From contig JAKOZI010000077.1 of the NCBI GenBank assembly GCA_029780075.1, positions 1 to 34,359 on the forward strand: a stretch of DNA of 34,359 nucleotides, given 5' to 3'. The stretch's first letter is position 1. Every line of letters begins with the position of its first letter. The position numbers and the translations under genes were made by a program. This DNA is from Pseudomonadota bacterium. GTDB lineage: Bacteria; Pseudomonadota; Gammaproteobacteria; Burkholderiales; Rhodocyclaceae. Shown piece after piece: positions 196 through 17,929 of the stretch. The notes below the pieces were generated by a model. The model did not search any database and was not told the DNA's origin. It worked only from the letters and a program-made list of their open reading frames with translations.

Positions 196-1050
196 CTAAA
201 CGTGTCCGGCTTCGCCGAGCATGTCGGCCGAGAGCAGGATCAGCTCGATTTCCTCGGTGATTTCCTCCTGGCGCTGGCTGTTGTAGCGGAGTCTGAGCCG
301 TGCGCTGTCGTCATCGAGCCGCTGCAGGGCGCGGTCCATATGCGCCTGACGCTGCCGGTTCTCGGCCATCAGCGAGCTGAACAGCACTTCGTTCAGTACC
401 GCATGCAGATAATGCCCGGTCAGCCCACGCAGGAACTCGATGGGAGGCAGATTCAGTTCCGCCGGGAAAGGGTACGCCCGATCGGGAGCGGGCAGATCGC
501 GCAAGGGCAGCAAGTGACGCATGCGGATATCGCCGGTGGCATCGCCATGATACAGGGCCGAGAGCCCGTAACCGGCGTACTCCTCGCGGGCAAGCAAGCC
601 GCTCAGCTCGCGCGTCAAGCGCAGCAGGACGGCCGGGACTTCGTCGGCGACAATGGCCCCCGGCTGTGCCAAATCGACGCAGTCGCGTTCGCCGATTCGA
701 GCCGCCAGACGGCTGCCGACGACAAGCCAACGAACCGGCGCCTCCTTGTCCTGACACAGTGCCTGCATGCGCGCCAGCAGCGCTTCGTTGAAATCGCCGC
801 AGAAGCCCTGTTCCGAACCCACCAGCACGCAGAGTTCCCGCCCTGGCAGTGGTTCGTCGACAAACTCGGCGTGTCCGGCCAGGAAATCGGCAGCGGCCGC
901 TTCGATCCCTGCCACCATGTGCTGCTGGCTGACGAGGAAATCGCCCAGGATGCGGGTCTCCATCAGCGCCAGGCCTTTCATCGCCGACAGGATGCCGCCG
1001 ATATCGGACAGCGCGTCCAGCCGCCTGGCGATCTCACGCCGGCGGCTCAT
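196..1050 (-). CDS. atpG: N-type ATPase subunit gamma
   Basis: Central rotor stalk of the N-type F1Fo ATPase (284 aa). It couples rotation of the c-ring to catalysis in the alpha/beta hexamer. The N-terminal helix (MSRRREIARRLDAL, then ILSAMKGLALMETRIL) and the C-terminal helix (SLMAENRQRQAHMDRAL, then YNSQRQEEITEEI) match the two long coiled-coil helices of gamma subunits. The ATG at 1050 is preferred over a longer open frame reaching 1509, because the extra 150 or so residues are the antisense of the neighbouring gene and resemble no ATPase sequence. Its start overlaps the last 17 bases of the upstream DUF4276 gene. In N-ATPase operons atpG normally follows atpA directly; here about 11 kb of defence-type genes lie between them, yet the start is intact. 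The gene appears functional. Confidence 0.93.
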   Translation of the reverse strand: MSRRREIARRLDALSDIGGILSAMKGLALMETRILGDFLVSQQHMVAGIEAAAADFLAGHAEFVDEPLPGRELCVLVGSEQGFCGDFNEALLARMQALCQDKEAPVRWLVVGSRLAARIGERDCVDLAQPGAIVADEVPAVLLRLTRELSGLLAREEYAGYGLSALYHGDATGDIRMRHLLPLRDLPAPDRAYPFPAELNLPPIEFLRGLTGHYLHAVLNEVLFSSLMAENRQRQAHMDRALQRLDDDSARLRLRYNSQRQEEITEEIELILLSADMLGEAGHV

Positions 1051-1068
1051 CGCCTGCCTCCCGCAACC
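1032..1068 (-). repeat. att-like direct repeat R1 (atpG-proximal copy)
   Basis: A 37-bp sequence matching R3 (12222-12258) at 34 of 37 positions by eye. On the minus strand it encodes the last residues of AtpA (LREAGDEPPA, stop) and, in another frame, the first codons of atpG (ATGAGCCGCC). It is therefore the junction of the original atpA/atpG overlap. It forms one end of the inserted island. The role as a recombination site is inferred. Confidence 0.75.
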
Positions 1069-1663
1069 CTGCACATGTAAAGGCCATCTGCCTTGCCCAC
1101 TCGCTGTAAAGCTTGCGAAAAGACCGGCTGCGTGCGAATGCCTGCTGCAGGTCCATGCGCGCCGAAAAGGCCGGCTGGTCGGTCGTTTCTCCGTAACTGC
1201 CGCCGCACATGCGCGCCGTGATCCACCCCTTGGCGTTGCGCGGACCTTCGGCATCAATCGCTTCAGCAGGCTTGAATGCGAAACCGCGTTGGCCATCGAG
1301 CGATTCAGCTGCGGCGATGAACCAGGCCTCGTATTCCCTGTTGGCCAGCACGACCGACACCCGACGGTGTGGAACGTATGCTGTTGTTCGCTCGAGAATC
1401 TGTTTCCCCAACTCAGCCGGACAGGCATCATCGGCATCGAGCAGGACGAGAATCCAGCCGTTTTCGCCACACTTTGCGGCTGCCAGCAGCAAGTGCCGGC
1501 GGAATTCATCGTCCCGATTCAGGAATCGATCGCGATGAACGCGAATCGGCGGCAGCGCCTGCAACTGGACATCTGGCGTGCGGCAGGCGTTGATCCGTCG
1601 CAGCAGAATCGGCAGCGCGGCCACCTCGCCGGAACCCTCGACGATCGCCGCAACCGCAATCAC
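1034..1663 (-). CDS. DUF4276-family Toprim-like protein, partner of an AAA ATPase
   Basis: A 209-residue protein with the features of the DUF4276 family, which has a Toprim-like fold. A glutamate lies at the end of the first strand (IVEGSGE, E9), an acidic cluster in LLDADDA (D76, D78), NREYEAWF at 98-105, and a conserved Y-x-E-T-x-D-Q near residues 137-143. Such proteins are commonly encoded beside RecF/OLD-like ATPases in phage-defence loci, where the Toprim unit is thought to be the nuclease effector; that role is inferred. The start is GTG at 1663, overlapping the upstream ATPase stop as GTGA. The last ten residues, LREAGDEPPA, are nearly identical to the end of AtpA ([10 protein letters not shown]) and are encoded by repeat R1, so the natural C-terminus seems to have been replaced. 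The gene end overlaps the atpG start, as atpA would have done before the insertion. Confidence 0.8.
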   Translation of the reverse strand: MIAVAAIVEGSGEVAALPILLRRINACRTPDVQLQALPPIRVHRDRFLNRDDEFRRHLLLAAAKCGENGWILVLLDADDACPAELGKQILERTTAYVPHRRVSVVLANREYEAWFIAAAESLDGQRGFAFKPAEAIDAEGPRNAKGWITARMCGGSYGETTDQPAFSARMDLQQAFARSRSFRKLYSEWARQMAFTCAGLREAGDEPPA

Positions 1664-2865
1664 GGATCGACCTCGCCAAACAGATCAGCCTGTTCCTGTT
1701 CCTGGGCGGCAAGCACCGCCCGATCAGGCGCCAGTTGATTCAGCCGGAGGAGTTCTCCAGCCGAAAAAAGCTGGTCGCGCATGGCCATGCGCGCGGCCTC
1801 GTCCAGCGGTGCGATGCGCGTTTCCCCACCCTCGGAAACCACCGCCAGCAAGGCGTCGGCACTCAAGGACAGATCGTCGAGCAGATCCGGGCTGTGACTG
1901 GTAACGATGACCTGGGTGTCTTGCGAGGCGCGCGCCAGCGCTTCGCGCAAGGCCGCGCTGGCGGCCGGATGCAGCGCCGTTTCGGGTTCCTCGATACCGA
2001 CCAGCGAGGGCGCGTAATCCCGGTTTCCCTGGAACAGCGCAGTCAACACGCCGAGCGCTCGCAGCGTGCCGTCGGACATGTTCTGTGCCGGGAATCGCCA
2101 GGGATGTTTTGCTCCAGCCATGTCCTGGCGGAACTCCAGGGTTTCCATCGGTCCGATCGGCTTGCGCTCGACGCCGTGAACCATCGGCGCAACCGTCTGA
2201 AGATACTCCTGGATAATCTCCAGCCTGTCGGCGGCGCCCCGTTCCAGATGTCCGATCACGCTCGCGATGTTTTCCCCCGCGGGCTTGAGCAAGCGTCCTT
2301 CCTGTGGCTTCTGCAACTCGCGCATCAACTTCGGATTCAGGTTGTAGAAACCCATCGCCGTCAGGGCATCGAACACCGGGCGAAAGACCGCCATGCCCGA
2401 AGCCGCCACCAGCGCCAGACGATCGGCGGTTACCGCTGGAAAGGTTACCTCGCTGCTGGCTTTGAGGTTGCCACGCTCGATACGGAAAAACGGACCCTTG
2501 CCGACACCGCCAAGCACGCACTCCTCGCTTTGTACCTCGTAGCCGCGGCCCGCCAGCGCGCCGATGTTGAAAGCGTAGTGGCCGGCTTGCCCGTTGCTCA
2601 GCGCGAACTCCAGCCGGATGCCGAAGTTCGTCGGATGACCACTGGAGCGCCGCCGGACCTCGTTCAATCCGCCCCGTTCGTTCAGCGCATTGTCGAGAGA
2701 ACCGGCCAGGGCATCCCGTACCAGGTGCAGGGCGTCGAGAAAATTGCTCTTGCCCGATCCGTTGGCACCCACCAGATAGGTGAGCGGGTTGAGGCGGACG
2801 TCGCAGTAACCAATGCTCTTGTAGTTGCGCAGGACCACACGCGTGAGAAAAACCGGGTCAATCAT
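1660..2865 (-). CDS. AAA family ATPase (RecF/SMC-like, AAA_21 type)
   Basis: A 401-residue cytoplasmic ATPase. It begins with the RecF/SMC-like strand LRNYKSIGYCDVRLNPLTYL followed by Walker A GANGSGKS (33-40). A signature-like MSDGTLRALG, Walker B LVGIEEPETALHP and an H-loop VTSHSPDLL follow towards the C-terminus. This is the architecture of OLD-like and other defence-associated ATPases, which sense a trigger and license a partner nuclease. The partner here is the DUF4276 gene directly downstream, coupled by a GTGA overlap. ATG 2865 is preceded by AGGGG at good spacing. Upstream lies a 387-bp gap with repeat R2. It is related to, but clearly diverged from, the second ATPase at 3846-5039. 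The exact trigger and target are unknown. Confidence 0.85.
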   Translation of the reverse strand: MIDPVFLTRVVLRNYKSIGYCDVRLNPLTYLVGANGSGKSNFLDALHLVRDALAGSLDNALNERGGLNEVRRRSSGHPTNFGIRLEFALSNGQAGHYAFNIGALAGRGYEVQSEECVLGGVGKGPFFRIERGNLKASSEVTFPAVTADRLALVAASGMAVFRPVFDALTAMGFYNLNPKLMRELQKPQEGRLLKPAGENIASVIGHLERGAADRLEIIQEYLQTVAPMVHGVERKPIGPMETLEFRQDMAGAKHPWRFPAQNMSDGTLRALGVLTALFQGNRDYAPSLVGIEEPETALHPAASAALREALARASQDTQVIVTSHSPDLLDDLSLSADALLAVVSEGGETRIAPLDEAARMAMRDQLFSAGELLRLNQLAPDRAVLAAQEQEQADLFGEVDP

Positions 2866-3000
2866 TGTCTTGCCCCTTCAAGTTCAGTGCGGGTTGACGC
2901 TTCGCTGCGCTCGGCTGATGCCACTCCTAGCTCCCCCGGTTCCGCACATTGCGGCTGATAATGTATCGGACAGGGCTTCCAGCCTTCTGGTTATCCCAAG

Positions 3001-3038
3001 CCGGTGGCTCATCGCCCGCCTCTTGCAGCCAGGCTGCG
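3001..3038 (-). repeat. att-like direct repeat R2 (internal copy)
   Basis: The aligned core (3003-3032) matches R3 at about 25 of 30 positions and shares the stretch GGCTCATCGCCC on the plus strand. It encodes WLQEAGDEPPA, the AtpA tail, in one minus-strand frame, but the stop is replaced by TGG. It separates the two gene cassettes of the island. Its greater divergence suggests an older or differently derived junction than R1 and R3. Confidence 0.65.
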
Positions 3039-3138
3039 CGCGACCAATGTCTGCTCACCGATCCCGTGCGCGCCATCTTCCAGAAACCAAGAGGTAAACA
3101 ACGTTCCAAGCATCGCATTGAATTATTGAGAAAATAAC

Positions 3139-3161
3139 AAATCCGGCTCCTTGACGGATTT
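3139..3161 (-). terminator. Possible Rho-independent terminator after the Toprim-like gene
   Basis: On the minus strand AAATCCG pairs with CGGATTT across a 9-base loop, followed directly by GTTATTTTCTC, a T-rich run. It lies about 90 bp downstream of the stop at 3253. The stem is short (7 bp), so efficiency is uncertain. Confidence 0.45.
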
Positions 3162-3252
3162 CTCCTACGCCATGTCGCGCTTGGCCATGGGTTCTAGCGG
3201 TACGGGCGGGAAGGCGCTCCGTGGCGGTTTGGATGATCGCTCTATGCCAACT

Positions 3253-3849
3253 TCAACAAGACTGCGTCAATGATCGACCAAGCCTCTTGAAGGCCCTGAG
3301 CTTGCCCAGCATGCCGAAATTGGCGGGCACCTGCTTGATGATGGCAAGCGCATCGGTCTTTGGCGTATAGCTACGTCCGTGCTGTCCAAAGATCCTTTCC
3401 AGTCGCTTCTTCGGATTGGTGTTGTGCTCGACATTTCTTGTGTGCCCGATGATCACTGGGTGAGTCGGTCGCGAGAGCGTGGCGGACAGTGCTGAGCCAT
3501 CCGCCAGCAGCCACGCTTCGAGTTCGGCCTGGATCGCCACCAGAAACAGGCAGGGATGGTCTGCCAACCCTGCTTGCGCCAAAATGGCCCGAATATCGGC
3601 GATATCCTGTTCTTCGCCGTCCGGGCGGCTCCAACGGGGAAATACGTCCCAGACGACCAATACCCGTTCACATCCGGAATCGAACAGGGCCTGGGCCACT
3701 TGGCCGCACTGCACGATCAGGTCCGGTTTCCTTCCCAAAGGCCGAATCATCGGCGTCGCGTCGGGGCGAATACGCCCCGCGAGATGGCGAAGAACCTGCT
3801 CATCCTCCGAACCCAACCCCGCCTCGCAGATGATGCCGATCGTGCTCAC
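3253..3849 (-). CDS. Toprim-like (DUF4276/RloB-type) protein, partner of an AAA ATPase
   Basis: 198 residues. The pattern fits a small Toprim-like nuclease partner: glutamate after the first strand (IICEAG, E9), an aspartate at the end of a hydrophobic strand (VLVVWD, D68), then AELEAWLLAD (109-117), and a late basic segment NPKKRLERIF followed by a Y-x-x-K-x-D-A motif. Family assignment is by motif pattern only; DUF4276 and RloB are both possible. I chose GTG 3849: it has a GGGGAG ribosome site 7 bases upstream and overlaps the ATPase stop as GTGA, the same coupling seen in the other ATPase/Toprim pair. A TTG at 3864 would add five residues but lies before that ribosome site. It is the last gene of the helicase-methylase-ATPase-Toprim operon and is followed by a possible terminator. 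Confidence 0.7.
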   Translation of the reverse strand: MSTIGIICEAGLGSEDEQVLRHLAGRIRPDATPMIRPLGRKPDLIVQCGQVAQALFDSGCERVLVVWDVFPRWSRPDGEEQDIADIRAILAQAGLADHPCLFLVAIQAELEAWLLADGSALSATLSRPTHPVIIGHTRNVEHNTNPKKRLERIFGQHGRSYTPKTDALAIIKQVPANFGMLGKLRAFKRLGRSLTQSC

Positions 3850-5039
3850 TCGTCTTCTCCCCAACCGCCTTCCGGCGCCTCAGCTTCTTGCTCAACGGCA
3901 GGGTGGGTTACGAGCCGCTGCAAGGCATTCATGGTGTAGAGTCGGCCGGGCAGGAAACGGGTACGCCAGGGTTCCATGTCATTTCGACTCGCAGGCCAGG
4001 TAAACTCCGGGCCGCCGGGGCCACGCTCGCAAAGCAGTACATCATCGAGGTCAAGCATGTCCAGCAGATAGGGTGAATGGGTGGTGGCGATGACTTGGGT
4101 GCGCGCGCTGCGCGTGGCATCACGCATCAGGTCGATGACCAGACCCACGGTGCGCGGGTCGAGGCCGTTTTCCAATTCCTCGATGAACACCACCGTCGGC
4201 GGGTCCGGGTCCAGCAGGGTCGCTACCAGGGGCAATACGCGCAGGGAGCCGGAAGACATCAACCAACCGGGGATCTCGTAGCGGTCTTCCAGCAATTGCA
4301 CATAACCCCTGCGCAGCAGGCCGGCATCCATGATCTTCGGCTCCACATCGAGAGCGTAGGGCAACACGAAGCGCATCGCCTGGGCGACCGTGTCGAACGC
4401 GCTCGGCGAACGTTCGCGCAGGTCGATGAGATATTCCGCCACGTTGGCGCCGTCGCCGGACAAGCGCATACGCCCACCAGTTCGCCTGAGCGGCTGCAGT
4501 TTGCCTATGGCATCCGGGTTCAGGCGAAGAAATAAAGTCTCACGGAGGGCTTCGGCGGTTTCTGCCAGAGCCGGCACCCCGAACATGGCCGACCGGTCTT
4601 CAGCCAAGGCTTGCGGATGAATGACTCGCTCGCGGGTCAATTCCGGCCCCTTTCCTGTTCGGAAGCGCTCCTCCTGGATGTAGAGTCGATTTCCTGCCTC
4701 CCGCACATTCACCTTGAGGCTCAGGTCAACCGGCCCAAAAGGCATGGCCAACTTCAACCTGAAACTCATGGCCCCATGCTGCCGCGTGGGGTCAACGCGA
4801 GCAGCCGTGGTCAAGCGAGATACCGCTCCCTTGTGGCGGATATGCTCGAAGCCTTGCCAATGTTCCATCGCCGCATCGACGCCCTCCAGCACGACCTGGC
4901 GATAGGTTTCCACCGCCTCCAGCAGACTGGATTTGCCGCTACCGTTATTGCCGATCAGTACCGTGAGGGGCTTCATGCGGACGACGCCGCTGTCCTTCAA
5001 TGATTTGAAGTTCTCGATGGCGATGGACTTGATCTGCAT
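3846..5039 (-). CDS. AAA family ATPase (AAA_21/RecF-like)
   Basis: 397 residues. The N-terminus IAIENFKSLKDSGVVRMKPL leads into Walker A GNNGSGKSS (30-38). Near the C-terminus, MSSGSLRVLPLVATLLDPD resembles a signature helix, VVFIEELENGLDP is Walker B with leucine where related ATPases often have proline, and ATTHSPYLLDMLDLDD is the H-loop. The start at 5039 (MQIKSI) has AAAGGGA just upstream. An in-frame ATG at 5057, overlapping the methylase stop as TGATG, would add six residues and is a real alternative. The gene sits between the methylase and the Toprim-like gene in a gapless operon. An ATP-dependent sensor or gate for the Toprim partner is the likely role, by analogy with other ATPase/Toprim defence pairs. 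Confidence 0.85.
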   Translation of the reverse strand: MQIKSIAIENFKSLKDSGVVRMKPLTVLIGNNGSGKSSLLEAVETYRQVVLEGVDAAMEHWQGFEHIRHKGAVSRLTTAARVDPTRQHGAMSFRLKLAMPFGPVDLSLKVNVREAGNRLYIQEERFRTGKGPELTRERVIHPQALAEDRSAMFGVPALAETAEALRETLFLRLNPDAIGKLQPLRRTGGRMRLSGDGANVAEYLIDLRERSPSAFDTVAQAMRFVLPYALDVEPKIMDAGLLRRGYVQLLEDRYEIPGWLMSSGSLRVLPLVATLLDPDPPTVVFIEELENGLDPRTVGLVIDLMRDATRSARTQVIATTHSPYLLDMLDLDDVLLCERGPGGPEFTWPASRNDMEPWRTRFLPGRLYTMNALQRLVTHPAVEQEAEAPEGGWGEDE

Positions 5040-5056
5040 GGTATGTTCCCTTTGCA

Positions 5057-8000
5057 TCAGGTAATCAGACCTTGCGCCACACGGCGGTAGGCATTGTGGG
5101 CGTCGACCTTCACCGGCTCCGGCACCAGCGGGAAGGTGGCGAGGATGTGGGCGAATTCGGCTTCGCTGAGGCCATAGAGGTGGGCCACCAGGCCGTCGAT
5201 CTCGGCGCGCAGGCATGCACGTTCGACGGGGTTTAGGGGCTGGTGTCGTTCGAGGCCAACTTCTTTGGCCAGTTCATCGAATTCGAGCGTGGTACAAGTG
5301 AGGCGGGCGGCGCGGTTAACCAGGGCTAGAGCTTGCTTCGAGTCTGCCGCAAGGCGCGGCGCCGGCGTGTTATAAACGAAGAAGAAAGACACATGCGCCG
5401 TGACGCTCTGGCGGATGAACCAGTCGAAAACAATGCTATTGAATATGGCGAGCACGAACAGGCGCTCGGCAGAGTTCAGACGGCGGATGCTCTGGTGGCC
5501 CTTGGGCGTGACTTCATCGAAAAATACCTGTTCCAGACTGACCGTGTGCGGGCAGAAGCGATCAGGCGGCAGGAGGCAGGCAATGACAGTGCGCTCATCG
5601 GTGTTACGGCCCACGTCGCGGAACGCCAGGCGGTAGCTGCGGTAGTCGAGGCTTACCCGTTCCGGATCAGGCACTCCCGGCACGGCCCGAGCGACGAGCT
5701 GGCGCTGGAGCGCGCGCAGCCGGGGCGCCAACAAAGCCGCTCTGGCCTCTTCTTCATCGAGCCAATAGTGGGGTAGCGCGAAATCAGCCTGGAACTGGTG
5801 GAACTGTTTGCCTTCCCACAACGGCAGAAGCCCTGGCCCTGGCGCTGACCTGAAGAGATTGCTGTCGTCTGTCATGTGAAATTCGCGATGCAGGCTGAGG
5901 TTCCAGGAATTCTGGATTCGTTCACCCAGCAGCGGAAACTTGAGCATCTTCTCGGCGATATGCACGTCGAGTTCGCTCTTGAATTCCATCACTGAGTGCG
6001 AATCCGGCGACAAGCGGCGGATCAGTTTCACGTCCAGCCACAAGGCCCCTTCCGCCGGAAAGCGATCGAGTTCCGCTACATCCCAACGCATGAAGGCTGC
6101 GGGGAAACGGGTCGTGCCGAGTTCGCCGATGCGCACCGGCGATAGCAGATCGTCCGGAGGCGCGCTAGCGTTCTTCTCACCGGGCTGCTGCACGCGCAAC
6201 GAGGCGGTTCTTTCGAAAGTGAGCACGACGAATTTGAAGCTGCGATGTACTCCTTCGAAGATCTCCTTACGATTTTCGAAGCAGAACAAGCCTTCAATGC
6301 GGGTTCTGTCGAACAGCAGGTCGCGCAGCCCCTTGGCGCCCAGGTCGGTGTAGATACCGCTGGGAATGACGATGCCGCAGTGCCCGCCCGGGCGCAGCAA
6401 CAAGAAGCAACGTTCGAGGAACAGCTTGTAGAGGTTGAGATCGGAACCGACCTTGCGACCATCGACCGTTGCGAACTGGCTGGAGTATTCTGGTGCCCGG
6501 CGGAAATACTGATTGACATGCGGAAAGCGGCTCTCATACGCCAGCCACGTTTCGCGAATCGCCTTGTCCTTGAGCAGCTTGCCCTGCTCCTTCTCGAACT
6601 CCTTGATCGTCATCTTGTTCTTCGTCACCAATTCGGAGTGGTCGGCGAAGAACTCCTTGGCCTGCGGCTTGAACACCTCCCACGGTGGGTTGGTGAGCAC
6701 GATGTCAAAGCCGCCGCCGGTTTTGTCAACTGAGTGCATCACCTGGTCGAAGACATAGCCCCAGTGCAGCGGTGTTTCGGCGTCGATGTGGGCACGTTCG
6801 ATACGGCTTTTCTTCGCTTTTCCCAAGCCCTGCTTGTCAGCATCCCAGGTCGCTTGTTCGTACTTCACGCCTAAATCTTCGAACTGGTCACGCAACAGCT
6901 CGTTGAGGATGCCGACCGCGCAGGTCATTTCGGCGTCGATGTCGTCGCGCAGGACGCGCAGGTCCGTGCTCTTGCCCAAGTCGGCGGCGGTATGGCGATA
7001 GACGTCGAGCTTGCGATTTTTCTCTTCGAGCAGCCGGCGAAAGGGGGGCTTGAAGAGGTCATCCTGTTTGCGGTCGAATTCATGTTCGTCGACCCGCATC
7101 AGGCCGACCAGGGAGTTGCCGGGCAGGATGTTGAAGTCGATGTTGGGCAGCGGTTCCAGGTCTTCGACCCTATTCACCGACGCCACCATGGCCAGGAACA
7201 GCCGCAGCTTCGCTATCTCGCAAGCCTCTTCCATGATGTCCACACCGTACAGGTTGTCGCTGACGACACGGCGCTTGATGTAGTAGCCGACGCTGGGATG
7301 GCTTTTCTGGATGCCGCGCAACCAGGTTTCCAGTTCGCGGCTGGCGCCCATGCCGGCACGTCCGACGACGGCGTAATAAATGTTGATCAGCGCCTTGAGC
7401 GCGGCCACCAGAAAGGCGCCGGAACCGACCGCCGGGTCAAGGATGGTGATCGAGGGGAGCACTTCACCTACCAGCTTCAGCGCGGTGCGGGCGTCCATGC
7501 GTGCCAGGAGTTCGGCGACCGAGTCGAACTGGATGGCGGGAAGATTGAATTCCGGCAGCGCCGGGACATTGATGCGCTCAAGCACCAGCTTGTGAATGCT
7601 GCGCTCGGCGAGATAGCTGGTGATCTCAGGCCGCGTGTAATAGGCGCCGAAGGCTTTCTGGTTGATGTATTTCTCGAAGATGTAGCCCAGCACGTCCGGG
7701 TTGATTTCTTCCGGGTTACCGGCGGGGGTGTCGTCCAGATGCCAGGTGAAGGCGCCGAAGACCTCGAACACCCCTGCAAAGGCGGCATCCGGAATGCGCA
7801 AGCGGGTACCGACACGTGGCTGGCGGTTGGCGTCGAGTTCCAGCTTGTGATGCAGGAACAGGCCGCCGTTGAGGAACGGGATGCAGCCGGTCAAGGTTCT
7901 TGCCTGCGCGCTACGCTGATCTTCGGGCAGGGCGAAGGCATCGAAGAAGAGAGCGTTGAGGAATTCGCCGAAGAAGCGGTTTGCCCCGCGTGCGCGTGAT

Positions 8001-8740
8001 TCCTGAAGTTTGTTTGGCAGGTAATCGTAATCACCGCCATTCAAAAAGCCCTTCTTTTGCAGGAACCAGACGAACATCAGCCGGTTGAGGACGACCGAGG
8101 CATACCAGCGTCGGTCCCGCTCGTCGGCGATGCCTTCGATCGCTCCCAGCAGAGCGGCGTGTTGTTCCTGGTAGCGGGTAAAAAAACGCTTGGTGGTTTT
8201 CTCCACGTCCAGGGCGGCGGCCAGGCGGCGCGCTACTTCCAGCACCGGCAACCGGCCGCCGGCATCGAGTTCGGACAATTCCACCACCAGCGCGTGCAGC
8301 TTCGAGGCGAACAGGTCCACTGGCTGGCCGCGAAAGTATTCGTGGCGGCGGGCGGTAGTTTTAGGCTTGCCAGTACTCGTGTCCTTGCCACGTTTGACCC
8401 AGAACCAGAGGCTTTGGCCGGGGTCTTCCCGCCGGTCGGTGAAGATGATCAGATTTTCATGGTGCCGCTGGCTGACGTGACGCCAGATGGCCATGCGTTG
8501 GCTCTCATCGGGCCAGGTGCTGTCTGCCACCACTTGCAGCACCGCCACCCCGGCCAGTTCGGCGACCATGCGGCGGGAATAGGTGGAATGTGTGGAAGGG
8601 GTGCCTGCCTTCAGCTGATCGATTTGCCAGTCGCGCTCGCTGGCGGCGGGGTGATTCCAGCCGAGGACTTCGACGAACAGGGGGGTAAAGGCGAAAGCGG
8701 AAAGGTATTTCTGAAAGGCGGGTAGGTCGAGTTTTGACAT
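5057..8740 (-). CDS. Large N6-adenine DNA methyltransferase (Eco57I/type IIG-like)
   Basis: 1227 residues, far longer than a stand-alone methylase. SAM-binding motif I is LDPAVGSGAFLVAAL (near 434-448), followed by YGVDIMEEACEIAKLRL (motif II region, about 498-514), and catalytic motif IV is NPPW (684-687) in FDIVLTNPPWEVF; this order is the gamma-class N6-adenine type. About 430 residues precede the methylase core and about 400 follow, where a target-recognition domain is expected. I see no convincing PD-(D/E)XK nuclease motif in the N-terminal part, so cleavage may come from the PLD or Toprim partners. The ATG at 8740 follows the helicase stop by 2 bases (TAA-GC-ATG), so I reject the longer frame starting at 8773. 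The gene probably marks host DNA for self recognition. Confidence 0.88.
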   Translation of the reverse strand: MSKLDLPAFQKYLSAFAFTPLFVEVLGWNHPAASERDWQIDQLKAGTPSTHSTYSRRMVAELAGVAVLQVVADSTWPDESQRMAIWRHVSQRHHENLIIFTDRREDPGQSLWFWVKRGKDTSTGKPKTTARRHEYFRGQPVDLFASKLHALVVELSELDAGGRLPVLEVARRLAAALDVEKTTKRFFTRYQEQHAALLGAIEGIADERDRRWYASVVLNRLMFVWFLQKKGFLNGGDYDYLPNKLQESRARGANRFFGEFLNALFFDAFALPEDQRSAQARTLTGCIPFLNGGLFLHHKLELDANRQPRVGTRLRIPDAAFAGVFEVFGAFTWHLDDTPAGNPEEINPDVLGYIFEKYINQKAFGAYYTRPEITSYLAERSIHKLVLERINVPALPEFNLPAIQFDSVAELLARMDARTALKLVGEVLPSITILDPAVGSGAFLVAALKALINIYYAVVGRAGMGASRELETWLRGIQKSHPSVGYYIKRRVVSDNLYGVDIMEEACEIAKLRLFLAMVASVNRVEDLEPLPNIDFNILPGNSLVGLMRVDEHEFDRKQDDLFKPPFRRLLEEKNRKLDVYRHTAADLGKSTDLRVLRDDIDAEMTCAVGILNELLRDQFEDLGVKYEQATWDADKQGLGKAKKSRIERAHIDAETPLHWGYVFDQVMHSVDKTGGGFDIVLTNPPWEVFKPQAKEFFADHSELVTKNKMTIKEFEKEQGKLLKDKAIRETWLAYESRFPHVNQYFRRAPEYSSQFATVDGRKVGSDLNLYKLFLERCFLLLRPGGHCGIVIPSGIYTDLGAKGLRDLLFDRTRIEGLFCFENRKEIFEGVHRSFKFVVLTFERTASLRVQQPGEKNASAPPDDLLSPVRIGELGTTRFPAAFMRWDVAELDRFPAEGALWLDVKLIRRLSPDSHSVMEFKSELDVHIAEKMLKFPLLGERIQNSWNLSLHREFHMTDDSNLFRSAPGPGLLPLWEGKQFHQFQADFALPHYWLDEEEARAALLAPRLRALQRQLVARAVPGVPDPERVSLDYRSYRLAFRDVGRNTDERTVIACLLPPDRFCPHTVSLEQVFFDEVTPKGHQSIRRLNSAERLFVLAIFNSIVFDWFIRQSVTAHVSFFFVYNTPAPRLAADSKQALALVNRAARLTCTTLEFDELAKEVGLERHQPLNPVERACLRAEIDGLVAHLYGLSEAEFAHILATFPLVPEPVKVDAHNAYRRVAQGLIT

Positions 8741-8742
8741 GC

Positions 8743-11700
8743 TTATTGGCCCGGTATAAGCCCCAGCGAGCACACCACGCGCGGCTCACGAAATTGTGCG
8801 TCTTCTTCCGTGTAGGTCAGGCGGCCCTCCTCGCGCAAGGTCTTCACTGCCCCGGCAAGCTCCTCGTCGTTGACGCCACCGCGCATGAGTCGATTGAGAA
8901 GGTCGGCTGCCGTTTCCAGCAGGGGGCGGGCGTAGAGGTCATCGAGCGCACGTTCCAGTTCTTCGTCGCGAAACAGGGTGTGCCTCTGGGCTTCCGCGTA
9001 GCGCTTGAGGCGCTCGTAGGCGCGGCGGCGGGGGCTGGAGGGCCGACCCAGGCCGCCGCCGATCGCCTTGTCCTGGTGCACCGCCAGCTTCAACCCTTCA
9101 GCGACCAGTTCGTGGTGGTTTTCGGCACGGGGCACGGCGGGGGTGTCTGGTGCACATTCAGCCACGCGCAGGATGGTGAACTGGGATTCGGTGACTGTCT
9201 TGCCGTCAGGGCTGATCCAGGCGAGGTGGTCATTGTCTTCGGGTGACTTCACATACACCAGTGTGCCACCGCGCGCGGCATCGTCACCGAGTGAGGGCAA
9301 CGTAGTCCCGTCGAACGCGAAGGCGCGCGCCGAGTAAACCACCGGCGGCATGGATTCGACGGCGTGCGCGAGTTCAGGTTTGTCTTGCGTGGCTTGTTTC
9401 CAGATTTGCCAGGCGTAGGAAGCAAGATCGACGTCGTCGTCACTATCGTCAAGGACACCGGACTTCTCTGTGTAGAGGTCGCGGATGGTGTTGGCGTCGT
9501 CGTCCTCGAAAAAGGCTTCGTCGGTACCGACGACTTCGGCGTTTTCCAGCAGGCGCTGCTGGATGCGGGCGCGCAAGTTGATGAGACGCTCGACACCTTC
9601 GGCGGGCAAGAAAGAATAACAGTGGATTTCCTCGGCGCGCTGGCCGATGCGGTCCACTCGGCCGGCACGCTGAATCAGCCGGATGATCGCCCACGGCAGG
9701 TCGAAGTTGACGACCACGTTGCTGTCTTGCAGGTTCTGGCCTTCTGAAAGCACGTCGGTACAGATGAGAACTCGCACCTCGTCGGACTTGCTGACGCTCT
9801 TGTTATTCGACCTGGGCGAGAAGCGACACGCCAGCGCATAGGGGTCGGCGCTGGCGCCGGTAGCGACTTCCACTTGAGTGATACCGGTGCGGCGTACTTC
9901 CCGCGCCAGGTAGCGCGCCGTGTCCGCGAATTGGGTAAAGATCAGCACCTTGTCCTTGGCGTGTGTGCGTTCGACAAGACGCTGCAGCGCGATCAACTTC
10001 TGGTCACGTTGTGGATCCCATCGTCCGTGCGCGCGCAGCAGATCAAGGAGGGCTTGCGTGTCCGCAGCCAGATGTTCGGAAAGCGACCGTTTGAACAGGG
10101 TGGGGCGTATCCACTTGAAGCGCTTCTTGTATTCGCAAGCATATTGCTGATAGACGATCCTGGCGCGCGCCAGGCCGTCGGGTGCGGCGTCCGCCTCGGC
10201 CACAGGTTCAACCAGGCCGTCGAGCAGATCTTCGGGGTCGCCTTCCAGGCCTTCAGCGTCTTCGTCCACCCTTCCCAGGTCGAGCAAGCCGGCGTCGAGC
10301 ACACCTACCGGGAGGTCCAGCCCGTTTTCGATGGCATAGAGGTAAATCTGGTTGCGCAGAACGTGCCGGTCGATCGACTGCAGGAATGAAAAGCCGTTGG
10401 ATTCCAGGCGCTTGAAGAGGTTGGTGCGGCAGAACCCCATCAGCCGCTTGCCAGCGCGGCCCAGGTTGTCGATCAGCTTGCGCTCCGCGGCCGTGGCGGT
10501 CTTTTCCGCCAGCGGGTCGACATACAAACCCATGCCGTAGCGGGGCACATGCAGGGCATTGATCTGATCGACCATTTCGGCCGAGTAGAGCCTCGCATAG
10601 CGGTCATCCGGGTCGGCCTCGTCGACGGCGAATTTCAGCGAAATGGGCATGCGTTTCGGGAAGTAACGTTTCTCGCCATCGTTGTCGGCGATGTAACGAC
10701 GGCCGTTGTCATCTTCCGCCGTGTAGTGCTCGATGATAAAGCTGCGCGTGCGTCGAACCATGTACAGGCGGATCAGCTCGCGCCAGTCGTCAAACTCTTC
10801 GCTCTTTTCGATGGCGAGAATCGAATTGGCTTTGCACTGGTGCCGGCGCTCGAACTCAGGTTCGCTGATGCCATGTTTGCGCATGTGCCGCTCGGGTCGA
10901 ATGCCGATGTTGGCCTTTTCGTCGATAAACAGCCGTAGCTGGCTCGACAGGTCGGTCTTGGTTTTGTTGTAGGGAGTGGCGGTGAGCAGGATTGCTTTCG
11001 CATCGCAACTGCGGATGTAATCGGCAATCGCTTTGTAGCGTCGCCCCTCTCGGTTGCGCAGATTATGGCTTTCGTCGATGAGCACCAGACGATAGCGCTT
11101 GAGGCTGTGCAGTCGTTTGGACACTTGGCTGATCGGCACGACCATGCCGCGCAGGCCGTATTCAGTGCGGTAGCGCTCCCACATCGGTTCCAGGTTTTTC
11201 GGGCAAATGATGAGGGTCTCGTAGCCGAGATCGTCTTCGAACATACGCGCCAACGCGGTTGCCATCATGGTCTTGCCCAGACCGACGACGTCACCGATCA
11301 TCACCCCGCCGCGCCGATGCAGATGGCGTGCGGCAATCTTCACCGCGCTTTTCTGAAAATCGAATAGTTCCTGCTCGAAGCGTGCCGGCAAACGGAACTG
11401 GCTGAGACCGGCGCGCGCCTCGGTGCTGAGGTGATAGGCGATGTTGAGGTAGATCTGATACGGGGGAATGCTTGCTTCGCGCGCCCAACTCGATTCGATG
11501 ATGGCTGCGAGGTCTTGCGAGACGTCGATGGCCCAGCGGTCTTTCCATCGCTCTTCGAACCATTCCGACAAGCGCTGGGCGGCATGATGTTCCAGCACAT
11601 CGACGTTCAGTTCGCCCTGCTTGGAGAGCCCTTGCAGCGTGAGATTGCTGCTGCCGACGAAGCCGGTGATGGGGTTGTTCACGTCGTCGCGAAATAGCAG

Positions 11701-12129
11701 ATAGAGCTTGGCGTGCAGTGGATACGGCAGAAATAGTCTGACGATGGCCTGGCCTGCTCGCAATTGCCGGGCGAGTCGGCGAAGGCCCGCCTCATCCTTG
11801 CCAGAGGGGATGCCCAAGGTGATCTGTTCGCGCAAGTGGGCCCCGAACTGGGTCTTGAGCCGGGCCGCCGTGCCTTGGTCAATCAGGTTGTTACCTGCGA
11901 CTGCGCGGTAAAGCTCGCGAACTTCCTCGTGAGGCGGGCGTTGCATGCCAACCAATACACGGCAAACCTGGCCGTTAGCCGGTTGCCAGGGCTGTATCAG
12001 GTCATCGATGGCCTGCCAGCCGCGCAGATTGAAGTAGCCCACACAAAAATCTGCCCGGTTCGAAACTTGCAGAGTGGCTCGCAAGGCTTCGAGCAGTTCT
12101 TGTTGGATGTTGTCGAAGATGCGAGGCAT
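8743..12129 (-). CDS. SNF2-family helicase with N-terminal PLD-like nuclease domain
   Basis: 1128 residues. An N-terminal phospholipase-D-like domain is shown by HAKLYLLF (H139, K141) followed by GFVGSSNLT (157-164), a single HKD-type half site. The SNF2 helicase core follows: Walker A GDVVGLGKT (279-287), a DESH box at 352-355, ILLTATPYNKTK (motif III), then VLIFTQFADTARYLA, CTDVLSEGQNLQ and QRAGRVDRIGQ (motifs IV to VI). Proteins of this kind translocate on double-stranded DNA. Paired with the methylase immediately downstream it resembles the translocase/nuclease arm of restriction-like defence systems, including DISARM and the helicase-methylase-ATPase system Hma. Its ATG at 12129 has AGGA about 10 bases upstream. 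It is the first gene of the four-gene set and starts 94 bp downstream of atpA. Confidence 0.9.
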   Translation of the reverse strand: MPRIFDNIQQELLEALRATLQVSNRADFCVGYFNLRGWQAIDDLIQPWQPANGQVCRVLVGMQRPPHEEVRELYRAVAGNNLIDQGTAARLKTQFGAHLREQITLGIPSGKDEAGLRRLARQLRAGQAIVRLFLPYPLHAKLYLLFRDDVNNPITGFVGSSNLTLQGLSKQGELNVDVLEHHAAQRLSEWFEERWKDRWAIDVSQDLAAIIESSWAREASIPPYQIYLNIAYHLSTEARAGLSQFRLPARFEQELFDFQKSAVKIAARHLHRRGGVMIGDVVGLGKTMMATALARMFEDDLGYETLIICPKNLEPMWERYRTEYGLRGMVVPISQVSKRLHSLKRYRLVLIDESHNLRNREGRRYKAIADYIRSCDAKAILLTATPYNKTKTDLSSQLRLFIDEKANIGIRPERHMRKHGISEPEFERRHQCKANSILAIEKSEEFDDWRELIRLYMVRRTRSFIIEHYTAEDDNGRRYIADNDGEKRYFPKRMPISLKFAVDEADPDDRYARLYSAEMVDQINALHVPRYGMGLYVDPLAEKTATAAERKLIDNLGRAGKRLMGFCRTNLFKRLESNGFSFLQSIDRHVLRNQIYLYAIENGLDLPVGVLDAGLLDLGRVDEDAEGLEGDPEDLLDGLVEPVAEADAAPDGLARARIVYQQYACEYKKRFKWIRPTLFKRSLSEHLAADTQALLDLLRAHGRWDPQRDQKLIALQRLVERTHAKDKVLIFTQFADTARYLAREVRRTGITQVEVATGASADPYALACRFSPRSNNKSVSKSDEVRVLICTDVLSEGQNLQDSNVVVNFDLPWAIIRLIQRAGRVDRIGQRAEEIHCYSFLPAEGVERLINLRARIQQRLLENAEVVGTDEAFFEDDDANTIRDLYTEKSGVLDDSDDDVDLASYAWQIWKQATQDKPELAHAVESMPPVVYSARAFAFDGTTLPSLGDDAARGGTLVYVKSPEDNDHLAWISPDGKTVTESQFTILRVAECAPDTPAVPRAENHHELVAEGLKLAVHQDKAIGGGLGRPSSPRRRAYERLKRYAEAQRHTLFRDEELERALDDLYARPLLETAADLLNRLMRGGVNDEELAGAVKTLREEGRLTYTEEDAQFREPRVVCSLGLIPGQ

Positions 12130-12221
12130 GGACGTGAAATTCCTACTTTGATTCGCCGACGGAAGGTAGCACGAAAAATGTCACCGCCGACCAAAGATGC
12201 GCCGTTACAGAGCGTATTCCC

Positions 12222-12258
12222 TCTCACACCGGCGGCTCATCGCCCACCTCCCGCAACC
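12222..12258 (-). repeat. att-like direct repeat R3 (atpA-proximal copy)
   Basis: Encodes the last residues and stop of AtpA ([10 protein letters not shown]) and continues a few bases into sequence matching the first codons of atpG (ATGAGCCGCC, then GTGAGA), which are useless here because atpG itself is 11 kb away. It matches R1 with three mismatches by eye. It marks the upstream end of the island. Confidence 0.75.
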
Positions 12259-13717
12259 AGCCGGCGACGGCCTCCCGCCATGCCTCCCGACCAGCCGCCA
12301 GTCCCGGCCCCCCAGCCGCCGCCTTGTGCAGCAGTCTCGCCAGCCGTGCCTGGACCACTACACCCGCCAGGGCGTCGAAGGCTCCCTCGTTATAGGCGAC
12401 CAGCCAGGCCAACTGCTGTTCCGGCGACAGCGGTGCGAGGCGTTCCTGCTTGAGCAGCTCCCGCAGCAAGCGGCCGCGCCGGATCTTGGCATCGACGCCG
12501 GCCTCCAGACGCGAGCCAAAGCGGGTGAATACTTCCAGCTCGAGAAACTGCAGGAAATCGAGCTTCATCCGCCCGGCCTCGGTCTTGATAGCCGGCAACT
12601 GGGCCTTGCCGCCAATCCGCGAGACCGAGCGGGTGATGTCGATGGCGGGCAGGAAACCGCGTGCGTAGAGCGCCGGATCGAGATAGATCTGGCCGTCGGT
12701 GATCGAGATCAGATTGGTGGGAATGTAGGCGGCGATCTCGCCCTGCTCGGTTTCGACGATCGGCAGGGCGGTCATGCTGCCGCTCCCGTAGCGCGCTGCC
12801 AGGCAGGTCGAGCGTTCGAGCAGGCGCGCGTGCAGGTAAAAGATATCGCCGGGATAGGCTTCCCGCCCTGGCGGGCGGCGCAGTAGCAGCGAAAGCTCGC
12901 GATAGGCTCGCGCATGCGTGGTGAGGTCGTCGTACACCACCAGCACGTCGCGGCCGCTCCACATCCATTCTTCCGCCAGGGCGCAGCCGGCGAACGGCGC
13001 GAGGAACTTGAGCCCGGGCGTGGTGGTGGCCTCGGCGACGACGACGCAGCTGATATCGAGAACGCGGGCCTGGCGCAGGGTTTCGATGGTCGCGACCACT
13101 GCCGAGCGCTTCTGGCTGATCAGCACGTAGACGCAGAGGACATCGCTCCCCTTCTGGGCGATGATCGTGTCCGTGGCCAGCGAACTTTTGCCGGTACCCG
13201 CGTCGCCGATGATCAGTTGCCGCTGGCCCTTGCCGATCGGGATCATGGTATCGACCATCTTGCTGCCACTCAGCAATGGGCGCCTGACGAAATCACGCGC
13301 GGTGATCGGTGGCGAGGAGACTTCGAGGGGGCGCCGGCGGTTGAATTGCGGTTGCGCACCGCCATCGAGGGGATTCCCCAGCGGGTCCACCACGCGGCCG
13401 AGAAAGCCGTCACCGACGCCGATATCCAGTCGCCGTCCGGTCAGGTGGGCCGCCGCGCCGGCGGCGAGGCCATCCTCCTGACCGAGCAGGATGGCGCCGA
13501 TGCGCCTGCTGCCGAGGTGGAAAACCAGTGCCTCGCTGCCATTCTCGAAGCGCAGGATCTGGTCCATTGCCGCCGAGGGCAGCCCCTCGATCCAGGCGAT
13601 GCCGTCACCGACCGCTGCCAGCTTGCCGATTTCGCTGATCCGCAATCGCGGCTGGTAGTCGGCCAGCCACTGGCTGCGCCGGCCACCAGGGTTTGGGGCA
13701 GAATGCTCAGTGATCAA
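12224..13717 (-). CDS. atpA: N-type ATPase subunit alpha
   Basis: 497 residues, the usual length for alpha. It forms the hexamer with beta and carries the non-catalytic nucleotide sites. Walker A is GDAGTGKSS (171-179) after [12 protein letters not shown], followed by the conserved ALAEEWMW and [43 protein letters not shown], split by strand and helix as in all alpha subunits; ITDGQIYLD and [10 protein letters not shown] also match. No ATG lies near the expected N-terminus. TTG at 13717 is chosen because GGAGG lies 9 bases upstream and gives [12 protein letters not shown] with 11 bases of overlap with atpF. A longer frame to 13867 would be antisense-derived. The last residues lie in repeat R3, so the original end may have been regenerated during insertion of the island. 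Confidence 0.93.
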
Positions 13718-14453
13718 GCCTGCCTGCCTCCGCGAAAACACCCAGTTCGCCGGCCAGACTGAGATCCAGTTGCCAGGCCCCGAGCGATAGCCGGACGCCG
13801 GCCAGCAACTCGCTATCCTCGACGAAAACGAGGTTGACGAGCTTTCCCAGCCGGGCATCGACGGCACCGGAGATCTGCCGGCGTTGTTCCTCCGAGAGCG
13901 GATGGGCGCTGCTCAACACCCCTTGCCCATGACCATTCTGGCCCGCCCGCAAAGGCTCCAGACGTTCTTCGGGCAGAGCCGAGAGTTCCTCGACGAAAAT
14001 TTCTACCAGCCGCGCTTCGATCTCCGGTCCTGCCAATCTGGCCAGCAGTGCGCTGGCGAACTGGCGGGCGAGTGCGCCGGACTGGCTGGCGAGTTCGCGC
14101 TGCAGGGTCTCCTGCCGGTGTGCTTCGCGAGCGGCGCTACGTTGCCGCTCGGCAGCCAGATCCCGGTCCAGCGCCTCCATCTGTCGCGCGTGCTCTGCCG
14201 CCATCTGGGCATCGAACTGGCTGCGGGCTGCCGCCTTTTCTCGCTCCCAGTCCGCCAGACGGCTTTCAAACTGGCGCTGCAGGGCCGCGGCCCGTGCTTC
14301 CGTCGCGCGTGCTTCGTTGAGGGCGCCCTCGATGCCAGCGCGACGCTCAGCCAGGGTCGCCAGCACCGGGCGGTAGAGAAAGCGCTTGAGGATCCAGATC
14401 AGCGCCAGGAAATTGATGATTTCGAGGGCAAAGGTGGTCCAGTCCAGATCCAT
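13707..14453 (-). CDS. atpF: N-type ATPase subunit b (with delta-like C-terminus)
   Basis: 248 residues, much longer than a normal b subunit (about 156). One membrane helix near the N-terminus ([20 protein letters not shown]) is followed by a long charged coiled coil (about 35-130), which is the peripheral stalk. The last part, [21 protein letters not shown] then [17 protein letters not shown], resembles the C-terminal domain of the delta/OSCP subunit. N-ATPase operons lack a separate atpH, so this extended b probably does both jobs; that is known for the family in outline and inferred here. It starts 9 bp after the atpE stop and overlaps the atpA start. Confidence 0.9.
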
Positions 14454-14462
14454 CGCCGCCTC

Positions 14463-14729
14463 CTACTTCAAGAGGTATTCGAGCAGCGGGTTGCGGAAGA
14501 GGATGATCAGCACGATCACCAGGACGTAGATGGCCAGCGACTCGATCATCGCCAGGCCGATGAACAGGGTGCGGGTGATCGACTTCTCCGCCTCCGGCTG
14601 CCGCGACAGCGCTTCGAGCGCCTGCGTAATCGCCCGGCCCATGGCAATGGCCGGGAAGATGATGCCGATCGCGATGGCCAGCGCTGCTACGACGGTGGAG
14701 ACCAGGACAAACCAGTGCATGTCGCTCAT
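14463..14729 (-). CDS. atpE: N-type ATPase subunit c
   Basis: 88 residues, two membrane helices forming the rotor ring. The ion-carrying carboxylate is E63 in GLAMIESLAIY, followed by S64; ALSRQPEAEKS is the polar loop contacting gamma and epsilon. In sodium-binding c subunits such as Ilyobacter tartaricus a glutamine in the first helix (Q32 there) helps bind Na+. The equivalent position here, two residues lower, is M30 in FPAIAMGRA. The ring therefore keeps the glutamate-serine pair but lacks the first-helix ligand, which weakens any assumption of Na+ specificity; the N-type ring of Burkholderia pseudomallei has been reported to be proton specific. Its start overlaps the atpB stop. Confidence 0.95.
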   Translation of the reverse strand: MSDMHWFVLVSTVVAALAIAIGIIFPAIAMGRAITQALEALSRQPEAEKSITRTLFIGLAMIESLAIYVLVIVLIILFRNPLLEYLLK

Positions 14730-15436
14730 GGGGAGCTTCCTTTCGTGTCGTTCGATGAGGGCGCTTCGGAGTGCTCCGCAGCGGCGTGGGATTGCATGCC
14801 GCCGGCGATGTAGATCAGGGCCAGCGTGCCGAAGATGTAGGCCTGGACCAGGGCTTCGACGATGTGCAGCATAAGCACCGGGACCGGCACCAGCAGCCCG
14901 GCAACCAGGAGGACCAGCAGCGCGGCCATTTCGAGGCTCATGATGTTGCCGAACAGGCGCATCGCCAGCGCGATGGTGCGGGAAAACTCGCCGAGCAGAT
15001 GAAACGGCAGGAGGATCGGGCTGGGGACCAGGTAGTGGCGCAGATAATTCTTCAGGCCTTCGCTGCGGATGCCGAACCAGTGCACCGAGACAAAGACCAG
15101 ACAGGCCAGCGCGGCGGTGGTCGACAGGTTGCCGGTCGGCGCATGCAGACCGGGCACGATTCCCGTCAGATTGGCGACAGCGACGAACAGCCAGAGGGTG
15201 CCGACGAAAGGCAGCAGCAGGCCGGCCCGACCCGGTAGCACACCTTCGATGGCCGCCTCGATCGACTGGACGACACCTTCCAGCGCGGTTTGCACAAGAC
15301 CGGGGTGGTCGACCGAGAGTCGTCTGGTCGCCAGTCGGCAGGACAGTCCGAAGGCCAGCAGGATGCCCCAGGTGGTGACCACTGTCGAGGTGATCCGCAA
15401 GCCCCCCAGACTGAAAACAACGCTTGCCGCTTCCAT
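14726..15436 (-). CDS. atpB: N-type ATPase subunit a
   Basis: 236 residues, a polytopic membrane protein forming the ion half-channels against the c-ring. The essential arginine is R160 in FSRTIALAMRLFGNIM, and VEALVQAYIFGTLALIYIAGG (about 193-213) is the conserved last helix with its glutamine. ATG 15436 (MEAASVVF) is chosen: it overlaps the atpQ stop as TAATG, whereas the longer frame to 15514 adds a hydrophilic, arginine-rich, antisense-looking stretch. In most N-ATPase operons atpR lies between atpQ and atpB; here atpQ runs directly into atpB. Confidence 0.93.
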   Translation of the reverse strand: MEAASVVFSLGGLRITSTVVTTWGILLAFGLSCRLATRRLSVDHPGLVQTALEGVVQSIEAAIEGVLPGRAGLLLPFVGTLWLFVAVANLTGIVPGLHAPTGNLSTTAALACLVFVSVHWFGIRSEGLKNYLRHYLVPSPILLPFHLLGEFSRTIALAMRLFGNIMSLEMAALLVLLVAGLLVPVPVLMLHIVEALVQAYIFGTLALIYIAGGMQSHAAAEHSEAPSSNDTKGSSP

Positions 15437-15708
15437 TACCAGTATTTTCTGATGAAGAGATAGACGTTGAAGACGCCGATCGCGAGGCCGATGAGGATCA
15501 GATTCACCGTCCACCGCACCGTGTACCCCTCACCCAGGCTATCAAGCCAGCGCCCGAGATAAGCGCCCGCCAGCAAGGGCGCCAGGAACAGCACCGACAG
15601 ACTGCCGAGGAAGACCGTTTGTGCGAGCAGTGAGCGCCGACTCCGTTCGGCCTCCTTGAGTCTTTCGCTGTCGCGGGAAACCTCGCGACGCCACTTGTCG
15701 TCGTTCAT
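15436..15708 (-). CDS. atpQ: N-type ATPase accessory protein AtpQ (AtpZ/ATPase gene 1 family)
   Basis: 90 residues with a charged N-terminus (MNDDKWRREVSRDSERLKEA) and two membrane helices: SLSVLFLAPLLAGAYLGRWL and WTVNLILIGLAIGVFNVYLF. The small-residue G-x-x-x-G-rich hairpin ending in a short basic tail is typical of the AtpZ-type ATPase gene 1 proteins found in N-ATPase operons. A role in assembly or Mg2+/Ca2+ handling has been suggested for the family; nothing in the sequence proves it. ATG 15708 fits the family length; the frame to 15879 is an antisense extension through atpC. The stop overlaps the atpB start. Confidence 0.82.
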   Translation of the reverse strand: MNDDKWRREVSRDSERLKEAERSRRSLLAQTVFLGSLSVLFLAPLLAGAYLGRWLDSLGEGYTVRWTVNLILIGLAIGVFNVYLFIRKYW

Positions 15709-15730
15709 TATGACCTGTGATGATGGTCGT

Positions 15731-17929
<2,199 letters not shown>

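Follow-up and report, generated by a model that had tools for sequence, protein, structure and literature searches.

The window analysed in this study, a 34,359-nucleotide stretch of a bacterial contig, carries on its minus strand an N-type ATPase operon in which six non-ATPase genes are placed between atpA and atpG (Table 1). This separation of atpG from the other ATPase genes had been recognized in the initial annotation, and both gene calls and Pfam matches agree with it. Matches to the alternate F1F0 models TIGR03323, TIGR03324, TIGR03305 and TIGR03306 fall short of the respective cut-offs; the N-ATPase designation is adopted because such models are the best or near-best matches, because the gene order D-R-B-E-F-A-G is found in relatives with the window proteins, and because a second, ordinary alpha gene is present elsewhere in the same genome (G000:C79). 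The labels given to subunits E, F, Q/R and C are those that we take to apply to this operon. For atpA, the longest open reading frame is tabulated, and the true start probably lies near 13717.

Table 1. Genes and junction copies of the interrupted N-ATPase operon, in window coordinates
Feature	Position	Strand	Block	Basis and remarks
atpG, N-ATPase gamma	196..1050	-		ATG at 1050; PF00231 1.6e-27; best NCBIfam TIGR03323 58.9 bits, under cut-off 282
R3, atpG-side junction copy	1002..1068	-		native atpG start with Shine-Dalgarno (SD); 37-bp core 1032-1068
HEC-01B (DUF4276)	1034..1663	-	2	PDLC04196 7.2e-88; PF14103
HEC-01A, AAA_21/AAA_15 ATPase	1660..2865	-	2	PDLC04178 6.3e-186; PF13304
R2, relic junction copy separating blocks 1 and 2	2964..3030	-		sequence match; present in UW9-POB too
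Second DUF4276-like protein	3253..3864	-	1	HEC-01B model 2.3e-08; PF14103 26.1 bits, under cut-off 30.2
Second AAA ATPase, HEC-01A-like	3846..5039	-	1	PDLC04178 2.7e-46, scored on a longer ORF reaching 5216; start placed at 5039
Type IIG restriction-methylase-like protein, Eco57I domain	5057..8773	-	1	PDLC03628 3e-103; PF07669
PLD + SNF2-like helicase	8743..12129	-	1	PF13091, PF00176, PF00271; PADLOC C3a139 HKD+Snf2 2.5e-50
R1, atpA-side junction copy	12222..12258	-		position-by-position identity stops ~3 nt past atpA stop
atpA, N-ATPase alpha	12224..13867 (longest ORF)	-		PF00006 5.6e-74; NF009884 above cut-off; TIGR03324 below
Remaining N-ATPase operon: atpF, atpE, atpB, atpQ/R, atpC, atpD	13707..17565	-		atpD and atpB by NCBIfam

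The insert is split by R2 into block 1, which adjoins atpA, and block 2, which adjoins atpG. Block 1 includes a type IIG-like protein, and block 2, which has no restriction or methylase protein, consists of adjacent HEC-01A and HEC-01B genes that both give strong PADLOC matches. Judged by these models, block 2 is a predicted HEC-01 system, and the cargo may serve an antiviral function. Intergenic gaps range from -31 to +94 nt, with 387 nt across R2. A promoter scan returned 1 site against 2.4 expected and a terminator scan 10 against 10.7 expected, and no Rfam match was obtained. The cargo may be expressed by read-through. GC content is 0.602 in block 1, 0.625 in block 2 and 0.649-0.650 in the ATPase genes, with a window mean of 0.622. 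No recombinase or transposase appears in the Pfam matches of the six cargo proteins, no integrase among the ten open reading frames beyond atpA, and no tRNA in the window.

Among 394 sampled genomes of the order, HEC-01A was detected in 6 and the helicase in 5 at the limits used, the window's own genome being counted in each, and none of the 9 other HEC-01A or helicase loci has atpA or atpG nearby at >80 bits. HEC-01B is present at 4 of the 5 other HEC-01A loci. At all four other helicase loci, the IIG-like gene is the helicase's neighbour but the AAA and DUF4276 genes are missing, so that block 1 could itself have a composite origin. In plasmids, HEC-01A has relatives in 3 records and the helicase in 23, all below 60% identity, and one viral-contig scan found no relative of HEC-01A. 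Among solved structures, HEC-01A has weak partial matches only and the helicase has no match at 1e-10. For HEC-01B, an AlphaFold model built from two sequences reached a pLDDT of 57.6, and Foldseek found no match to it at E 0.001 or better.

The ends of the insert are marked by copies of the atpA/atpG junction. Two 37-bp copies had been described in the initial annotation; both are real and match each other at 92%, but the count is three, since R2, inside the insert, had been missed. R2 is 81% identical to the atpG-side copy over 67 bp. With the 36-nt core running from the Shine-Dalgarno sequence to the stop codon, matches of at least 24 of 36 occur at only three places on both window strands, the core of R3 agreeing at 32 of 36 positions with R1 and at 28 of 36 with R2; in the same genome outside the window, there is one weak 26-bp match (contig C121, E 7.2e-4). 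Translated in the atpA frame, R2 gives AAWLQEAGDEPPA, an atpA-like tail; in the atpG frame, it gives MSHRLGITRRLEALSD, resembling atpG codons 1-16. It thus looks like a whole old junction. Between the window and UW9-POB, a related genome described below, R2 differs at 8 of 68 positions and R3 at 3 of 68, which fits R2 as a relic.

The copies nearly agree in one boundary and differ in the other. The left edge of all of them lies near -20 to -26 relative to the atpG start, whereas the match to the native junction extends to about +20, just beyond the atpA stop, in R1 and to +49 in R2. The duplication lengths are accordingly unequal: the helicase/type IIG block is associated with ~38 bp and the HEC-01 block with ~67 bp. 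If atpA is written as P, the 38-bp core as a, the 29 bp after it as b and the remainder of atpG as c, the region today reads P-a-block 1-a-b-block 2-a-b-c. The flanks of the copies were compared in 30 shuffle tests in all, one of which gave 0.0025 for R1 against R3 in the window from +17 to +90, with 0.0825 for the UW9-POB equivalent. Other values below 0.05 outside the known shared stretches were 0.0335 (window R1/R3, +49 to +120), 0.032 (window R2/R3, upstream) and 0.028 (R3 of A. contiguus against that of UW9-POB, upstream). On the 0.0025 value, R1 may once have extended further into atpG, corresponding to a longer first duplication. A similarity between R2 and atpA to the left of ~26 nt before the start was also considered and is unsupported by the shuffles.

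At the atpG side, the last cargo gene is fused to the duplicated sequence. Residues 199-209 of HEC-01B (GLREAGDEPPA, 1037-1069) resemble the atpA C-terminus. The window protein runs to residue 209, whereas in the same numbering four HEC-01B homologues from other genomes stop at about 194-199. HEC-01B overlaps the atpG start by 17 nt, the same overlap as that of the atpA stop in R1. These comparisons show, at the sequence level, that HEC-01B took over the copied atpA tail.

Uninterrupted junctions are the rule in relatives. Surveys of the order, the family, named GTDB genomes and the class and genus were carried out, and these samples overlap. In a 200-genome sample of the order, 17 gamma loci came from 16 genomes other than the window's, and atpA is adjacent in all 17; in 395 genomes of the family, it is adjacent at 22 of 24 further gamma loci, the exceptions being Accumulibacter contiguus (L023) and an atpG fragment (L035). 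The class and genus samples added 15 loci, all adjacent. Among named GTDB loci (the best 80 of 244), atpA lies directly against atpG in 78, with corrected gaps of -27 to +191 nt, and the remaining two belong to Accumulibacter and share the window's insertion, intact in UW9-POB and as remnants in A. contiguus. L035 was rejected as an occupied site, as it contains only the atpG fragment and its genome (G371) shows no N-type atpA; this gamma fragment probably belongs to a decayed operon.

In UW9-POB, the insertion and all three junction copies lie on a contig of 151,757 bases and are ~93% identical to the window where aligned. In A. contiguus, the insertion is split over two contigs: after atpA, ~40 bases that match the window beyond R1 are succeeded by part of the helicase gene (11963-11839) and by 50 bases of the IIG-like gene (8333-8284), and atpG is preceded by a stretch resembling the end of HEC-01B, a resemblance that is weak alone (shuffle 0.028 against UW9-POB, 0.276 against the window). 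Beside this stretch, a putative transposase fragment was read by eye. The window, UW9-POB and A. contiguus, which represent a small group of sludge bacteria, form one clade with 100/93 support in a tree of 81 gamma proteins; a label-shuffle control on this tree compares just five rows and is uninformative. Among 28 genomes of the genus, gamma was matched in 8 and the helicase in 2, the window's own genome included in each. The initial proposal of a defence island at the atpA/atpG overlap, with the junction duplicated and both genes spared, is supported, and the single-copy empty sites it called for in relatives are the rule. Its suggestion of an integration hot spot is not supported at this junction, where the insertion was seen in one lineage, and no other cargo between two junction copies, for which a search had also been suggested, was seen at atpA/atpG among the loci examined.

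Selection was estimated with a Nei-Gojobori script on one genome pair, the window and UW9-POB. All six cargo genes are under purifying selection between the two genomes, with dN/dS values of 0.08-0.30: 0.078 for HEC-01A and 0.259 for HEC-01B in block 2, and 0.163 for the second DUF4276-like gene, 0.296 for the second AAA gene, 0.237 for the IIG-like gene and 0.089 for the helicase in block 1. The corresponding values are 0.143 for atpA and 0.319 for atpG. The dS of the second AAA and DUF4276-like genes (3253-5039) is just 0.04, whereas the other six genes range over 0.14-0.45 (atpA 0.18, atpG 0.22), which suggests that this pair was recently exchanged. Within the IIG-like gene, positions 5317-5787 drop out of the DNA alignment between flanks of ~93% identity and perhaps represent an exchanged target-recognition domain.

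The origin that we favour, with somewhat better than even confidence, is two serial insertions with long target duplication, filtered by selection so that both ATPase genes were kept. The ancestor of the three Accumulibacter genomes would have acquired the two defence blocks successively at the atpA/atpG overlap, possibly by a break-and-join route, the overlap being duplicated over ~38 bp with the helicase/type IIG block and ~67 bp with the HEC-01 block. The upstream copy would have retained the atpA end and stop and the downstream copy the atpG Shine-Dalgarno sequence and start, with the middle copy, R2, left as a decaying relic; HEC-01B would have lost its own stop and run on into the atpA tail of its copy. 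A pair of insertions, each bringing its own duplication, yields the present order whichever block came first. Since the duplicated stretch has the atpG Shine-Dalgarno sequence near one end and the atpA stop near the other, it comprises about the minimum that both genes require, and selection alone can explain the exact placement. The insertion is old, and its original ends and any lost recombinase are no longer visible.

Two serial insertions are supported by the three copies, the atpA-like and atpG-like codons of R2, the empty relatives, the shared insertion in UW9-POB with its remnants in A. contiguus, the single clade, the HEC-01B tail, the dN/dS values, the lower GC of block 1 and the lack of a recombinase among the Pfam matches of the cargo and of a tRNA in the window. 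Restriction-modification (RM) systems are described in PMC3874152 (also PMC3031569 and PMC1643837) as inserting with long, variable target duplications on the order of 100 bp. On the other hand, 38 and 67 bp fall short of that order, the cargo exceeds an RM system, and the GC of block 2 is near the window mean. In addition, the laboratory movement of an RM system described in PMC3031569 was mostly linked to insertion sequences (IS) and essentially absent in an IS-less strain, which, with no transposase in the cargo here, counts against an RM-type route.

The nearly common left boundary of the copies would also be explained by a site-specific enzyme. The initial annotation had proposed such an integration, and a tyrosine or serine recombinase using the junction as its attachment core, its integrase gene since lost, would also account for the exact placement, the 32 of 36 core matches between the ends and the restoration of both genes. 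We nonetheless regard this as improbable, given that all six cargo proteins have counterparts in UW9-POB with no recombinase among their Pfam matches, that the right boundaries and hence the duplications of the two blocks are unequal, and that the named loci (the best 80 of 244) are either empty or share this one insertion. Scarcely more credible is a transfer by homologous recombination from a donor N-ATPase operon in which the cargo was present beforehand. R2 would be its donor-junction trace, and its atpA-like and atpG-like codons, those of a whole diverged junction, are what this reading would expect. However, no donor with a single block was seen among the loci examined, the shared stretches are short, and, between the window and UW9-POB, the dS of atpA and atpG falls inside the span covered by four cargo genes (0.14-0.45), the remaining pair standing at 0.04. 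An assembly artefact might be suspected from the 346 contigs and 6.13% contamination of the window's assembly, but it is refuted for practical purposes by the same arrangement on the long UW9-POB contig and by the A. contiguus remnants.

A second interrupted N-ATPase operon was encountered at a different junction. The atpD-atpA distance, measurable in 59 of the 80 named loci (the best 80 of 244), falls between 2229 and 2918 nt in 58 of them; the exception, at 7686 nt, is L116, a Methylococcales bin with an insertion at atpF/atpA (L116:3207-8543). Another bin, L114, is 99.9% identical where the two overlap, its contig beginning inside the insert. This insert contains a 95-bp relic of the atpA start (78/95 identical), two small minus-strand open reading frames that by eye resemble a toxin-antitoxin pair, a protein with sub-threshold AAA_16 and TPR matches, and a sodium/proton exchanger-TrkA_N fragment. 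Its single PADLOC match has E 0.007, so it is not established as defence cargo. The Methylococcales insertion is independent of that in Accumulibacter. It is a speculative and rather doubtful idea that overlapping N-ATPase junctions repeatedly accept gene blocks with duplication of the downstream gene's start, these two lineages being two outcomes; if true, translation of cargo at such junctions could become coupled to that of an ion pump. Two other loci showed separate peculiarities: in L107, a nicotinate phosphoribosyltransferase-like gene (by eye; L107:4372-7060) lies just upstream of an atpR-like gene, and the ~8.5 kb preceding atpA yielded no atpD; in L105, whose contig has a run of N, no atpD was seen in ~8.4 kb.

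In the open-licence literature searched, no paper was found on N-ATPase in Accumulibacter, on a defence system inserted in an ATP synthase operon, on DUF4276 in defence, or on atpA/atpG as a genomic-island integration site. The three junction copies apparently record two nested events, and a defence gene that ends in its target's tail with a 17-nt overlap makes coupled expression directly testable.

Compared with known systems, block 2 resembles HEC-01 of PADLOC in its side-by-side pair of strongly matching genes and is unlike it in that HEC-01B here has a 10-15-residue tail, 11 residues of it from the ATPase junction. Some genomic islands integrate at tRNA genes or gene ends by means of tyrosine recombinases; like them, the present insertion leaves its target restored by a duplicated core, but the cargo has no detected integrase, no tRNA is involved, and the duplication lengths are unequal. 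The locus is also like RM insertion with long target duplication in Helicobacter pylori (Nobusato 2000 and Furuta 2010, as cited in later papers) in the terminal direct target repeats, the single copy in empty relatives, an RM-like component in block 1 of the cargo and the lack of any mobility gene found. In contrast, the target here is the overlap of two operon genes that both stay intact, the third copy suggests that the same place received insertions twice, the cargo adds HEC-01 modules, and its last gene took the target's tail. RM systems have likewise been found in operons on the same strand, as is the cargo here, although the operons named in PMC4615327 are those of glutamate and histidine metabolism rather than of an N-ATPase. 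The locus would extend this mode of insertion, with its long target duplication, to defence cassettes placed where two operon genes overlap.
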